Both the position numbers and the translations under genes were made by a program. Positions 5,652 through 25,560 of a stretch of DNA of 29,003 nucleotides are shown here, piece after piece. Within the stretch, counting starts at the first letter, position 1. Each line of letters starts with the position of its first letter. Under the pieces are notes generated by a model. The model worked only from the letters and a program-made list of their open reading frames with translations. It made no database searches and was not told the origin of the DNA. The stretch is from a virus, in IMG/VR virus record IMGVR_UViG_3300031772_000204, positions 1-29,003 of that record. One strand, 5' to 3'.

Positions 5652-6002
5652 ATGTCTAACACGCCTTACATCGAGCTTCAACGTCAGAAACTTTCTAATG
5701 GAAAATGGGAAGGAATGTCCCGTGACTACGACGAACCAATCATGTTGAGCCGTTACCAATACGTCATCGAACAGACTGAATCCAAGTTCAACGCCAATTG
5801 GACAGGCTACACCGCAGTTCGGCTGTTTGATTTGGCAAACAGCGTGGTAATGTCGGAGAAAGTCTTTGAATCGGTTTCGCAATCGGCCGTGGCGCAGGGC
5901 GAGGTTTCGGAAGAGGCGGAAGCAAATCAGCCTGAACAGCCGGCGGCTCCGGCAAAGAAACGTGGCCGGCCGAAAAAAGTTGTTGACAACAACGCTGAAT
6001 AA
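5652..6002 (+). CDS. Hypothetical protein with C-terminal AT-hook tail (116 aa)
   Basis: A globular N-terminal domain (about 1-75) is followed by an alanine/glutamate/proline linker and the tail AKKRGRPKKVV, a textbook AT-hook (K-R-G-R-P-K-K) for minor-groove binding of AT-rich DNA. The gene at 8132-8569 ends with nearly the same tail. The promoter TTGCCA 5619-5624, 16 bp, TATAAT 5641-5646 ends five bases before the ATG. The -35 box of the next gene lies within the codons for the final residues. Confidence 0.82.
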   Translation: MSNTPYIELQRQKLSNGKWEGMSRDYDEPIMLSRYQYVIEQTESKFNANWTGYTAVRLFDLANSVVMSEKVFESVSQSAVAQGEVSEEAEANQPEQPAAPAKKRGRPKKVVDNNAE

Positions 6003-6016
6003 GGTATAATAACTTC

Positions 6017-6238
6017 ATGAATCAAAACACCCTAAACGGAATCATCTATGTTCGCAAGACACTCACCGGCTTTTGTTGGATATTCGTTTTTATCATGGTG
6101 ATGAATATTTTCATGTTAATACCAGAAACAAAATCTGACATTGCCTTGAGAATCAGTTCCCTCTTCTTCTCGGTTTTGTATATCACACGCAATGTCGTGG
6201 CATCCTTCATCGAAGGATACGAAGGAAAAAAGAATTGA
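6017..6238 (+). CDS. Small two-span membrane protein (73 aa)
   Basis: Two hydrophobic segments are evident, about residues 17-35 and 46-64, with a short loop and a charged C-terminus (EGYEGKKN). The promoter TTGACA 5983-5988, 16 bp, TATAAT 6005-6010 ends six bases before the ATG, and the stop TGA (6236-6238) lies inside the -35 box of the next gene. Function is unknown. Confidence 0.78.
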   Translation: MNQNTLNGIIYVRKTLTGFCWIFVFIMVMNIFMLIPETKSDIALRISSLFFSVLYITRNVVASFIEGYEGKKN

Positions 6239-8649: not shown

Positions 8650-8721
8650 GTTCTAATGATGTAACGGAAACATGGGGAGCCCGGAAGCCCCTCGATACAG
8701 GTTCGACTCCTGTTTAGAATG
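8650..8721 (+). tRNA. tRNA-like element (CGG-anticodon position, degenerate anticodon arm)
   Basis: The acceptor stem pairs over seven bases (GTTCTAA with TTAGAAT, G1-U72). The D-arm is ATGT-AACGGAA-ACAT with GG in the loop, and the T-arm is a canonical ACAGG-TTCGACT-CCTGT. Canonical spacing puts CGG at positions 34-36, but U33 is absent (C instead) and the two inner anticodon-stem pairs are mismatched. Neither CCA nor a normal anticodon loop is seen. It may be a degenerate tRNA-Pro or a tRNA mimic. Confidence 0.5.
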
Positions 8722-12184: not shown

Positions 12185-13247
12185 AACACAGTTCATGGTC
12201 CACGAACATATTCTGTGTGGAGAGGCCGTCTATTTGGTTCAGCCTCAACATATAGGATGTAAGTGGACACAGTCCAACAAACACTTTCGTTCTTCTGTAT
12301 GGAATTCCGAAGGCGAATTGATTTCTGCTGGCTTTCCAAAGTTTGTGAACTGGGGCGAGAACCCTGAACACTTTCCTGTTCCTACCAATATTCGTGATTG
12401 TGTCATCACTGAAAAGCTTGACGGATCCCTTCTCATTGTCTCGAAATACAAAGGAGAATTTGTTCTCCGAACCCGTGGAACTACGGATGCATCCACACTT
12501 AACAATGGACATGAATTGCAGATATTCAAATCAACTATTTTGCCAAAGTTAGCGGCGAACGACTCTACTGAAACTTGGGATTATTCCTATTTGTTTGAAT
12601 GGACTTCTCCGCTTCAGAGGATTGTTTTGAATTATGGCGATACGCCTGAGTGGCGTTTGGTTGGTGGTGTTGAACACAAAGACTACTCTCTTTGGCTTCA
12701 AATTGAATTAGATAACGTCGCGAAGGATTTTGGCATCAAGCGGCCTGAAACTTATACTTTCGGCTCCATTGATGACCTGCGAGACATTGACAACTGGAAG
12801 GGTAAAGAGGGCGTGGTTATCTATTCCAAAGAGGGCCAGGCCTTGCACAAAGTCAAATCGGCATGGTATCTCGCTCTTCATCACATGAAGTCGGAATTGG
12901 CTTCTTTCGACAAAGTGATTGACGTTTGGTTCACCATGAATCGTCCTGACTATCAGACTTTTTATACTCACGTTGCGAAACAATTCGACTTTGAATTGGC
13001 AAATCAGATTCAAGGTGACATGAGCCGTATCTGTGACGGTTACAAAGAAGTCAACAAGATTGTGGCGCACATGACCGAATTTGTTAATGAAGTTCGTTCC
13101 ATGTCAACTCGTCGTGACCAAGCTCAGAAGATTCTTTCTGCTTATGGCGAAACGAATCGCGGTTCTTTCTGTTTCAAGTTGCTTGACAACAAGCCACTCG
13201 CAGACGATGATCTGAAAAAACTCCTGTATCAAGTCTTAAAAAAATAA
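12156..13247 (+). CDS. RNA ligase, T4 Rnl1-like (363 aa)
   Basis: The nucleotidyltransferase motifs are in order: K87 in EKLDG (motif I, AMP acceptor), LFEW at 146-149 (motif IIIa), EGVVIY at 218-223 (motif IV) and HKVKS at 231-235 (motif V). The region FRSSVWNSEGELISAGFPKF upstream is typical of Rnl1. These enzymes seal RNA breaks with ATP; T4 Rnl1 repairs tRNA cut by host anticodon nucleases. Length matches the family. The start overlaps the HNH gene, so it is coupled or uses the upstream promoter. Rnl1 plus a phage tRNA-Lys fits tRNA repair. Confidence 0.92.
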   Translation: MKINLKEIDETQFMVHEHILCGEAVYLVQPQHIGCKWTQSNKHFRSSVWNSEGELISAGFPKFVNWGENPEHFPVPTNIRDCVITEKLDGSLLIVSKYKGEFVLRTRGTTDASTLNNGHELQIFKSTILPKLAANDSTETWDYSYLFEWTSPLQRIVLNYGDTPEWRLVGGVEHKDYSLWLQIELDNVAKDFGIKRPETYTFGSIDDLRDIDNWKGKEGVVIYSKEGQALHKVKSAWYLALHHMKSELASFDKVIDVWFTMNRPDYQTFYTHVAKQFDFELANQIQGDMSRICDGYKEVNKIVAHMTEFVNEVRSMSTRRDQAQKILSAYGETNRGSFCFKLLDNKPLADDDLKKLLYQVLKK

Positions 13248-17605: not shown

Positions 17606-18148
17606 ATGAATAACACCGTATCTGCCGACATTATCAAACGCGTCGAGGACAAGATTCTCGAAGTGATGACGATTCTCCAATCTCGTTATCCTCACGTCGT
17701 CATGACCATTCCTTCATATTCGTTCCGACAAATGGGGCGGAAAGGTGGATTGGCCTATTATTCTCTTGCCAAGATGGAATTTAATTCTGACTTCTTCAAG
17801 AATCACTGTGAAGACATGATCAACCAAACGATTCCTCACGAAATCGCTCACTGTATCGCATATCAAGTGTATGGCATGGCTGGAAAAGGTCACAACCGAT
17901 TGTGGAAAAACATCATGTATGCCTTGAGCTCCATCGGCGTCAAAGTCACCCGTTGTCATGAATACAGCCTTGAAGGTGTCAAGACTCGAAAGGTTCTTCG
18001 CCCTTTTATCTACGCGTGTAGTTGTCAGAAATTCACCTTCACGATGAACATCCACATCAAAATCCAAAAGGGTCGCCGATATACTTGTCGGAAGTGTCGC
18101 CACCCGATCGCTCTTCTTGGTTGTAATTTAATTTCACAAGCCGCTTGA
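17606..18148 (+). CDS. SprT-like zinc metalloprotease (180 aa)
   Basis: The HEIAH motif (78-82), which holds two zinc ligands and the catalytic glutamate, is followed by a third histidine (H96, GKGHNRLW). C-terminal cysteines C138/C140 and C161/C164 form a zinc-ribbon-like unit. This order and length match SprT/Spartan-family proteins, some of which act on DNA-protein crosslinks. The target here is unknown. Start 17606 follows TTGACT 17573-17578, 16 bp, TATATT 17595-17600 by five bases. Confidence 0.87.
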   Translation: MNNTVSADIIKRVEDKILEVMTILQSRYPHVVMTIPSYSFRQMGRKGGLAYYSLAKMEFNSDFFKNHCEDMINQTIPHEIAHCIAYQVYGMAGKGHNRLWKNIMYALSSIGVKVTRCHEYSLEGVKTRKVLRPFIYACSCQKFTFTMNIHIKIQKGRRYTCRKCRHPIALLGCNLISQAA

Positions 18149-18179
18149 CAAATCGATAACGACAAAGTATAATAACTCA

Positions 18180-18422
18180 ATGAAAGATCTCGAAACACCA
18201 TCAAACTCCAAGAAGAAAACCAACGGATACTCCAGCAACGTTCTCAAGCAGAAACGTCAACGGCGCCAGTATGATGCCGATGACCGCCTGGCCGCCTGGG
18301 ATTCCCTCTCTACTCAAGAGAAGTTGAACAGTCTTTCCGGTCGAAGGGGCGAGAGTAAGAGGCAGGTTGCCCGTTTGAAAGCTCAGACGCAGCCTCAACA
18401 GCAAGACAAGAAAAAGGCATGA
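18180..18422 (+). CDS. Basic, low-complexity hypothetical protein (80 aa)
   Basis: Rich in K, R, Q and S, with an N-terminal SKKKTNGYSSNVLKQKRQRR stretch and a QPQQQDKKKA tail. Disordered and probably nucleic-acid binding. No family is recognised. The promoter TTGACA 18145-18150, 17 bp, TATAAT 18168-18173 is six bases before the ATG, and the next gene overlaps its stop (ATGA). Confidence 0.8.
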   Translation: MKDLETPSNSKKKTNGYSSNVLKQKRQRRQYDADDRLAAWDSLSTQEKLNSLSGRRGESKRQVARLKAQTQPQQQDKKKA

Positions 18423-20750: not shown

Positions 20751-20787
20751 TATTTGACAATCACTCGCATCGTGATATAATAATCCA

Positions 20788-21624
20788 ATGAATACAACTC
20801 TCTCATTTGGAAAGGGTAACGCTAAGCTTGACGGATTCATTCAAACCCTTTCCCTTCCATCCGGATACACTTGTCCTGGCGCCGATGCTTGCTTGTCAAA
20901 GGCAAATCGTGACAGCGGAAAGATAACAGACGGGCCAAATTGCCAATTCCGATGTTTCTCCGCCAGTCAGGAATGCCTATTCCGTAACGTCCGCAATTCA
21001 CGATGGAATAACTTTGAACTTTTGAGGGCGGCTGGATCGTCGCAGGGAATGACCGATCTCATTCTAGCTTCCCTTCCTCAATCGCCATTTCAGGTGGTCG
21101 TACGGATTCATGTTAGCGGCGACTTTTTCAATCAATCCTACTTCGATGCCTGGGTGGCGGTGGCAAAGGCCCGGCCACATTTTCTTCTGTATGCCTACAC
21201 AAAGTCTCTTCCCTTCTGGGTGGCTCGTTTGAATAACATTCCCTCGAATCTTATTCTAACTGCCTCGTTTGGTGGAAAATTTGACAGCCTCATAGCACAA
21301 CACAATTTGCGTTACGCAAAGGTAGTTTATACGGAAGATGAAGCCAAGACTCTTGGCTTGGAAATCGATCACGACGATAGCCACGCGTATAAAAACGGGC
21401 CTAGCTTCGCTCTGTTACTTCATGGGACTCAACCTGCTGGAACGGAGTCAAACCTTGCCCTTCGACTTCTACGCAAGGCCGGCAAGGGTGGCTACGGTGG
21501 AACATACGATGTTCACAAGAAAGAAAAGATTAAAAAGTCGTATGGTGGTATTGCCAAAACAAAGGCTAGGGGTACTACCCCTCCCGTCGTAGGGGCAAAG
21601 AGTGTCAGCGCAGAAGCTGCTTGA
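20788..21624 (+). CDS. Gp88-family phage protein (278 aa)
   Basis: The sequence contains TCPGADACLSKANRDSGKIT, VVVRIHVSGDFFNQSYFDAW and a LLYAYTKSLPFW segment, all characteristic of the phage gene-product-88 family. Several cysteines in the N-terminal third suggest a metal or iron-sulfur site. The role of the family is not established. The C-terminus (RGTTPPVVGAK) is encoded over a palindromic repeat. The promoter TTGACA 20754-20759, 16 bp, TATAAT 20776-20781 is six bases before the ATG. Confidence 0.88.
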   Translation: MNTTLSFGKGNAKLDGFIQTLSLPSGYTCPGADACLSKANRDSGKITDGPNCQFRCFSASQECLFRNVRNSRWNNFELLRAAGSSQGMTDLILASLPQSPFQVVVRIHVSGDFFNQSYFDAWVAVAKARPHFLLYAYTKSLPFWVARLNNIPSNLILTASFGGKFDSLIAQHNLRYAKVVYTEDEAKTLGLEIDHDDSHAYKNGPSFALLLHGTQPAGTESNLALRLLRKAGKGGYGGTYDVHKKEKIKKSYGGIAKTKARGTTPPVVGAKSVSAEAA

Positions 21625-22889: not shown

Positions 22890-22965
22890 TGGTAGCCCTG
22901 CGGGGAATTGAACCCGCGATCTGTAGGATGAAAGCCTACCGAATTAGCCATTATTCGACAGGGCC
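22890..22965 (-). tRNA. tRNA-Glu (UUC anticodon)
   Basis: 76 bases with canonical spacing: acceptor GGCCCTG/CAGGGCT, D-arm GAAT/ATTC with GG, anticodon stem GTAGG/CCTAC around CTTTCAT (anticodon TTC), a T-arm with TTCAATT, A73 and an encoded CCA. One C appears shifted in the T-stem (CCCCGC), giving an eight-base loop or two mismatches. Its own promoter lies at 23009-22982. Confidence 0.88.
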
Positions 22966-22981
22966 ACAATGACCGTAAATA

Positions 22982-23009
22982 ACTATACTCGACTTTCGAG
23001 AAATGTCAA
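22982..23009 (-). promoter_or_regulatory. Promoter of tRNA-Glu
   Basis: TTGACA 23009-23004, a 16-bp spacer and TATAGT 22987-22982, about 17 bases before the mature tRNA 5' end. Confidence 0.78.
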
Positions 23010-23842: not shown

Positions 23843-23889
23843 GAAATTCAATTATGGATTCAAGAGCTGACATCATATAGTGTCTCGTC

Positions 23890-24012
23890 TCTCTTTTAAG
23901 TCTCCATCAGCGGGAGACTCCACAAAATTCAAGGCGGTTTTTGTTCTCGGCTTCTTAGGCCGAACCAGATTCCTATTCGGTCTGGTGGTTCATCCGCGAA
24001 CCATCTTCTATA
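23890..24012 (-). ncRNA. About 120-nt multi-hairpin RNA
   Basis: Behind its own promoter (24046-24019) lie four hairpins: TGGTTC/GAACCA, ACCAGA/TCTGGT, TCGGC/GCCGA with loop CTAAGAA, and a terminal AGTCTCC/GGAGACT 7-bp stem (23919-23899). There is no convincing reading frame. The 3' end is a guess at the last hairpin. Confidence 0.55.
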
Positions 24013-24018
24013 CTAATT

Positions 24019-24046
24019 ATTATATCACCAATTGCTCTGTTGTCAA
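24019..24046 (-). promoter_or_regulatory. Promoter of the 23890-24012 RNA
   Basis: TTGACA 24046-24041, a 16-bp spacer and TATAAT 24024-24019. Confidence 0.82.
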
Positions 24047-24053
24047 GTTCGAT

Positions 24054-24511
24054 GGCGGTGATAACAATTCAATTTACCATCGGCTGACTGTGGCTTTCAG
24101 CTTCTTAACACCAAGCTGCCCACCGCTCAGGGAAAACAGTGACTTACTAACGCTCTAGAACGTTACGGCTCAATTTACCATGAGTATCACAACCGAACGA
24201 GTTTTGCGGCGAATCGTCACGCCAATCACTTAGAGCACCTGAAACGACCTCCGGGGTATTATTCCCGTGACTAACAGGCTTCCGAGAACAATGTATTTCT
24301 ACATCAATTGACACTTGCCAAAGTCTCGACAGTTCTATGCCCTAAAAAAGCGCGGTGTTTGTGAAATAATCATCTTAGCTTCTACTGGCTACGTTAGTTA
24401 CCATAGGCTACTGGCCACAGGTCCGCCATCTGCTCCGATATTTACTTTATAAGTTTGAGACGGCTACCGATTTTTTATTAACCCAAACTTAAAGGCGGAT
24501 ACACCACCGCC
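24054..24511 (-). ncRNA. Large (about 458-nt) structured RNA with paired termini
   Basis: The 5' end GGCGGTGGTG (24511-24502) pairs with 3' TATCACCGCC (24063-24054) over ten bases, seven of them strong. The promoter lies just upstream (24545-24517). No reading frame covers the region. Inside are several hairpins (for example AAGTTTG/CAAACTT) and a repeated ATGGTAAATTGA motif. Size, paired ends and location beside phage tRNAs recall ROOL and GOLLD RNAs, which also occur in phages near tRNAs. I cannot confirm membership. Confidence 0.65.
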
Positions 24512-24622: not shown

Positions 24623-24802
24623 TCAAGTCTTTGGTAACAATCTTTTTCTTTGATCGCCCTTACCAACGATGTTGCCTTGACGGTCCCGAGTGGTATTGTC
24701 CGATTCAGAATACTTAGCGAGGATTCTACCGGTTCCATCACGCAGGATTTTGCCGTCATCCCTTCCGATGATATGGCCTGTTCTGTCTTTAATGTATTCC
24801 AT
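24623..24802 (-). CDS. Small repeat-like phage protein (59 aa)
   Basis: Repeats of a G-x-I-x-G-R-x-D/T pattern (KDRTGHIIGRDDGKILRDGT, then TRDRQGNIVGKGDQ) match a type of short beta-repeat protein seen in phages. Its role is unknown. It starts three bases after the stop of the upstream gene and shares that promoter. Its stop TGA lies in the -35 box at 24626-24621. Confidence 0.75.
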   Translation of the reverse strand: MEYIKDRTGHIIGRDDGKILRDGTGRILAKYSESDNTTRDRQGNIVGKGDQRKRLLPKT

Positions 24803-25501: not shown

Positions 25502-25560
25502 TGGATGTGACAGGACTCGAACCTGCAATGCACTCGGCTCTGCCTTTGAGCTACACACCC
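25502..25560 (-). tRNA. tRNA-like RNA lacking an anticodon arm
   Basis: The acceptor stem (GGGTGTG/CACATCC), U8-A9, D-arm GCTC-AAAGGCA-GAGC and T-arm GCAGG-TTCGAGT-CCTGT are canonical. Only ten bases (CGAGTGCATT) separate D- and T-arms, where about 23 are normal, so there is no anticodon stem. No CCA is encoded. It starts one base after the stop of the upstream gene. It may be a deletion pseudogene or a tRNA-elbow mimic. Confidence 0.65.

Follow-up and report, generated by a model that had tools for sequence, protein, structure and literature searches.

A predicted noncoding RNA and its structured neighbours in the tRNA island of an uncultivated phage

The conserved unit at the flagged locus

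Does the stretch at positions 24511–24054 on the minus strand (458 nt) specify a large structured RNA, as its initial annotation proposed, and, if so, where would that RNA begin and end, and what might it do? The stretch lies within a 29-kb IMG/VR virus record from an uncultivated phage, the whole of which (29,003 nt) was analysed and is referred to here as the window. The minus strand was examined because the tRNAs around the stretch lie on it; those at 22891, 23690, 25118 and 25199 all share this strand, and the description of the stretch as adjoining phage tRNAs holds. It is also gene-free as described, inasmuch as no minus-strand ORF of at least 60 aa lies inside it; one plus-strand GTG frame (23880–24158) extends into it.

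All of the comparative results rest on three phages, namely, that of the window and two relatives, L002 (a 25.9-kb contig) and L003 (a 250.8-kb contig). The relatives were found via a neighbouring protein, in which they are 73% identical; we take it, by appearance alone, to be radical-SAM-like, and it falls in a PHROG family of unknown function. With the helicase as alignment query only L002 and L003 were recovered, and a bait search with the helicase found nothing. Both relatives share a large part of the window's right half, with its order kept, and L003 encodes a T4-type major capsid protein (Pfam Gp23, E 6.7e-64). Among the window's matches to L002 and L003, the best noncoding blocks (element A, the 3′ half of the core, and RNAs B, C and D, all described below) show ~80–92% identity, as against ~65–76% for the neighbouring coding DNA.

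A promoter does precede the stretch, as had been claimed (TTGCCG-17-TATAAT with an extended TG; 24545–24517, minus strand; 10/12), but it is confined to the window, there being no comparable hexamer pair in L002 or L003. Likewise, the ten bases at either end do pair (10 pairs, two of them G-U), although the ends had been picked to fit this pairing, and the helix is not a conserved one: its 5′ arm, GGCGGTGGTG, is missing from both relatives, as is the local hairpin that contains this arm in the window, GGCGGTGGTGTATCCGCC (24511–24494). The 3′ arm has two competitors, 24430–24423 (GATGGCGG) and a local hairpin at 24082–24050, the latter carrying a compensated pair. The repeated motif is genuine: the 12-mer ATGGTAAATTGA occurs both at 24181–24170, within a variable insert, and at 24080–24069, within hairpin H3, and is unlikely to have arisen by chance, as an exact repeat of that length is seen in only 7 of 1000 dinucleotide shuffles. 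Of the latter copy, L002 and L003 retain just GGTAAA.

What both relatives do keep is an upstream promoter, a hairpin and a core. The conserved unit begins at a different promoter, 81 bases upstream of the window-only one; this promoter, TTGACG-16-TATAGT (24626–24599), recurs in L002 (13151) and L003 (13662) at the corresponding position, with hexamers and spacing unchanged; transcription is predicted to start at ~24592, and a conserved TTATTTAnCGGT follows the promoter in all three phages. Element A (24593–24538) is a 5′-end hairpin with a purine-rich conserved loop, GGAAGTTGAAAGCGAAGATGGAAG, and is 85% identical to L003 over 129 nt, including the promoter. As its three-row alignment was poor, the stem was taken by eye, the arms in the three phages being CGGTGAC/GTTGCCG, CGGTGAA/GTCACCG and CGGTAAG/CTTACTA (fold z −2.0).

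The core itself is divided in two. Its 5′ half (24431–24351), which runs GATGGCGGACC...AACGTAGCCAGTnGAA...CTTT and includes hairpin H1 (24408–24388), is conserved in L002 and L003 and falls within a cmsearch match at 24431–24287. Its 3′ half (24134–24049), also conserved in both, comprises CCTGAGCGGTGGGCA, hairpin H2 (24118–24098), GCCACAGTCA and hairpin H3 (24082–24050), and is directly followed by the promoter of RNA B (24046). Between them lies the variable insert (24350–24141), which accounts for about half of the 458 nt and splits the core at one fixed point; it is ~210 nt long in the window, 93 nt in L003 and 0 nt in L002, and the window and L003 versions have no similarity to each other. 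Together, element A and the core (hereafter A+core) span ~340–550 nt. The covariance model of the core, R3, matches the window as two separate hits (24431–24287 and 24227–24049) flanking the insert; the notion of a duplicated core, suggested by this pair of hits, was rejected, since each hit corresponds to one half of a single core.

At the flagged locus the relatives have stops in all frames and frame-breaking indels of lengths not divisible by three, which speaks against a conserved protein. A variant in which small peptides are encoded, such that the conservation would be that of coding sequence, could point to an open frame from ATGGAAGGTCGAGTC in L003, where 43 codons run from the GATGGAAG motif; this frame has 13 codons in the window and is out of register in L002, and single-base indels occur within the conserved blocks, such that we hold this reading to be very improbable. 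As far as comparison of the three phages can show it, the locus is noncoding: the promoter is shared, the core ends are conserved, the insert has a fixed position, there is no frame and the gene order is kept. The initial annotation was accurate as a description, and its noncoding RNA locus beside tRNAs stands; its boundaries, promoter and closing helix, on the other hand, are not what evolution has kept. There is, in our estimation, about an even chance that the flagged stretch belongs to an A+core RNA, noncoding and transcribed from the promoter at 24626–24599, that serves as an early stable RNA acting in trans.

Structural support and comparison with known families

Several hairpins can indeed be drawn in the flagged stretch, but its single-sequence folding energy is ordinary (z −0.64 for the minus strand and −1.44 for the plus strand), and the longer transcript gives a z of −0.25. 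In the core, each of the three sequences can form H1, H2 and H3 in full (100% of cells), and there are two compensated pairs, one in H2 and one in H3; however, 61 of 500 shuffles reach as many. The z of the core is −2.2 against column shuffles of a two-sequence alignment, and a long-range helix between 24430–24423 and 24058–24051 has zero compensated pairs. Covariation, which the initial annotation had named as the check on its proposal, is thus weak in the core and clear in the neighbouring RNAs. The sequence of the core is conserved, and its structure has moderate support; its neighbours B, C and D are much better supported as structured RNAs. The ordinary folding energy and the unconserved middle would also suit a neutral spacer with chance hairpins, whose conserved ends mark only promoters and tRNA flanks. 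Yet at each end of the core >80 nt are conserved in both relatives, partly at ≥80% identity, outside promoters and tRNAs, and this, together with the two compensated pairs, makes a neutral spacer improbable.

The whole window was searched with Rfam at gathering score and yielded no family except tRNA; at permissive thresholds, the island in the window, L002 and L003 gave only tRNAs and sub-threshold chance matches. There was no covariance-model or ARAGORN match to tmRNA or RNase P RNA, and cmscan with gathering and permissive E-values found no ROOL or GOLLD in the window, L002 or L003, in keeping with the earlier remark that neither could be recognized. That remark had nonetheless raised these families as candidates, and the location of A+core would suit them: both ROOL and GOLLD have been found in phages near tRNA islands, and one GOLLD lies just downstream of tRNA-Met (PMC12286853). 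Like GOLLD, in which the 3′ part is conserved and the 5′ part varies (PMC12286853), A+core combines conserved and variable parts, and like ROOL it contains no protein gene. Size, however, sets them apart, the ROOL studied being 659 nt and many GOLLD RNAs exceeding 800, and from three sequences no elaborate consensus structure is derivable for A+core of the kind known for ROOL. A homo-oligomeric RNA cage is a further mark of the two families; A+core was compared with them by covariance model, size and location. Given its smaller size and the lack of an Rfam match of substance in any of the three phages, membership of A+core in either family is extremely unlikely, and ROOL and GOLLD may better be regarded as its analogues in place.

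The RNAs and promoters of the island

On the minus strand of the window, the island runs in the order A, core, RNA B, tRNA-Met, HNH endonuclease, RNA D, tRNA-Glu, RNA C and a terminator-like hairpin (22773–22750, of the intrinsic type by its sequence), the order A, core, B, tRNA-Met being common to all three phages. The gene for tRNA-Met (CAT; 23768–23690) is called by both ARAGORN and Rfam, and that for tRNA-Glu (TTC; 22966–22891) by ARAGORN. The HNH endonuclease gene (23638–23204; PHROG HNH match, E 7e-31) lies between tRNA-Met and RNA D, and no HNH reading frame occurs at the same place in L002 or L003. In L003, ~500 nt without an HNH frame separate tRNA-Met from RNA D (12424–12924). The tRNA-Glu gene and RNA C are swapped in both relatives, where the predicted transcription start coincides with the first bases of RNA C. 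Elsewhere in the window, on the opposite strand, ARAGORN calls a tRNA but assigns it no anticodon (8650–8721, plus; folding z −0.25).

The island promoters, with spacings of 16–17 nt, are of the same TTGACA-16-TATAAT class as those of the protein genes. Outside the island, ten promoters of the strict TTGACA-16/17-TATAAT type have an ATG 6–8 nt past the −10 box, at the expected start of transcription, and eight of them begin a listed ORF (starts matched by hand); behind the promoters of A, B and C there is no conserved ATG. These eight, apparent starts of leaderless mRNAs as are the other two, lie at 465–502, 871–905, 1109–1143, 1619–1653 and 2274–2309 on the minus strand, and at 5983–6017, 18145–18180 and 20754–20788 on the plus strand.

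This arrangement bears on the main rival to a role in trans, a cis role within the tRNA transcript. As a leader or processing spacer, A+core would through its structure guide nuclease cutting or protect the downstream tRNA-Met and would have no role of its own. It shares a strand with the tRNAs, no terminator lies between 24592 and tRNA-Met, the order is kept in the three phages, and in L002 and L003 RNA B leads almost straight into tRNA-Met. Conversely, in all three phages RNA B and tRNA-Met have a 12/12 promoter of their own at 24046, so that they do not need the A+core transcript, which weakens the case for a cis role; the conservation of A and the core ends, moreover, exceeds what a spacer needs. 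We consider a cis role fairly unlikely.

RNA B (24008–23932) consists of three consecutive hairpins upstream of tRNA-Met and has four compensated pairs and a z of −4.7 (z-values for B, C and D are from three-sequence alignments against column shuffles). Its promoter, TTGACA-16-TATAAT with an extended −10 (24046–24019), is unchanged in hexamers and spacing in both relatives. In L002 alone, an additional ~80 nt separate this promoter from RNA B (12656–12736) and contain a GAAGCAAG/CTTGCTTC helix.

RNA D (23140–23022), five hairpins closed by CTTAGC/GCTAAG, is the best supported of the window's new predicted structured RNAs. It is 92% identical to L002 and has a z of −7.5, and nine pairs are changed on both sides, a number reached in 0 of 500 shuffles, most of them coming from one 6-bp helix that is replaced whole in L003. 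The RNA D promoter (23207–23180; 12/12) is matched by an 11/12 promoter at the same place in L003 and by none in L002, where RNA D follows close behind tRNA-Met without a promoter of its own.

RNA C (22881–22805) shares a unit with tRNA-Glu, served by an 11/12 promoter (22982–23009, minus strand; hexamer match). It forms a tRNA-like cloverleaf ending in CCA, with the acceptor, D and T stems of tRNA topology, and has a z of −2.8 and seven compensated pairs, which 0 of 500 shuffles equal. In place of the anticodon loop there is a 4-nt loop, UUCC/AUCC, and in place of the T loop a 10-nt loop, UGAGCRUUGC; the canonical 7-nt anticodon and T loops are absent from RNA C, and neither ARAGORN nor Rfam calls it a tRNA. 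By its sequence, RNA C looks unable to decode. The sole match of its covariance model, R2, outside this lineage is a true tRNA-Arg, which fits a descent of RNA C from tRNA. A further Rfam tRNA match, at 25502–25560 on the minus strand (41.5 bits), has acceptor, D and T arms with 6 nt in the anticodon region against 18 expected, and may be a second non-decoding tRNA.

Hairpin 1 of RNA B (UGGUUC-GCGGAU-GAACCA) may recall a CsrA/RsmE site, and an invariant loop of RNA C contains GGA, features that could suggest a sponge that binds a CsrA/RsmA-type protein through GGA motifs in hairpin loops. GGA is, however, not enriched (5 in the core stretch against 6.0 expected, and 23 in the whole island against 29.1 expected); these motif counts led us to reject a sponge of the CsrB/RsmZ type, and sequestration of such a protein is a highly unlikely function for the locus.

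Searches for further homologues returned this lineage. Among 50,697 phage records there was no significant match except for tRNAs and one HNH-annotated stretch, and a BLAST search of phage records with the 458-nt stretch gave no match. The L002 core did hit 45 Klebsiella/Raoultella phage records over 35 nt (E 2), hits that we judged to be chance; the two records inspected had them in the T4 frd region, away from tRNAs. The BLAST matches of RNA D in phage records were also chance. When IMG/VR was scanned for patterns drawn from the core and from B, C and D, L002 and L003 were the only true matches, the others being chance where inspected, and two genome-contig scans for RNA D gave none that were true, with one chance match in Bordetella. 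Covariance models R1 and R2 were run over 82 loci and 44 whole records, and R3 was run over 50 loci as well as the two relatives; apart from the tRNA-Arg (R2) and a 14-bit chance match (R3), all matches were within this lineage. None of the three models matched L102, the T4 tRNA region, nor did RNA D, RNA C or the core match it in sequence. RNAs B, C and D would represent three unnamed RNA families with covariation support, and the core is a fourth candidate.

Possible function and significance

The closest known RNAs are RNAC and RNAD of T4, the likeness being one of setting and not of sequence or covariance model. RNAC (species 1, 139 nt) and RNAD (species 2, 119 nt) are noncoding and lie in the tRNA cluster, on the tRNA strand, as here, and in both systems a homing endonuclease gene adjoins the RNAs (segB in T4, the HNH gene here). 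A+core is two to four times longer, and whereas RNAC and RNAD are classed as late and have been validated by Northern blot (PMC9697503), the island promoters look early. The roles of RNAC and RNAD are stated to be unknown (PMC3014915). Phage K, which belongs to a different phage group and has a Staphylococcus host, offers a parallel by location only: its lnc001 and lnc002 are abundant RNAs beside tRNA genes, one having its own early promoter (PMC9241854).

In the explanation that we favour, A+core has an early-type sigma-70 promoter, and the host polymerase would transcribe it along with the tRNAs at an early stage of infection. As no terminator separates the units, we infer that host tRNA-processing nucleases would trim the transcript into stable RNAs, and these might act in trans, as is presumed for RNAC and RNAD. 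Because the tRNA-like, seemingly non-decoding RNA C shares the island, the likeliest targets, by association, may be components of the translation or RNA-processing machinery. As for the variable insert, it would form a peripheral domain in which replacement is tolerated. The compensated pairs on which this explanation draws number nine in D, seven in C, four in B and two in the core. A bolder form of it, which we think doubtful, makes the island an RNA-based takeover module, in which A+core, B, D and C would jointly act on host translation or tRNA processing early in infection, with the core as a scaffold whose insert is swapped between phages.

The island represents a second set of predicted tRNA-cluster RNAs, unrelated to those of T4, in a lineage of larger phages whose capsid is of the T4 type. 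The T4 tRNA-cluster RNAs are still without a known role, and to them the island adds three predicted RNA families (B, C and D), plus the core. These noncoding RNAs surpass the adjacent coding DNA in conservation, and one of them is tRNA-like yet seemingly unable to decode; this suggests that RNAs of the kind recur in the tRNA islands of phages.
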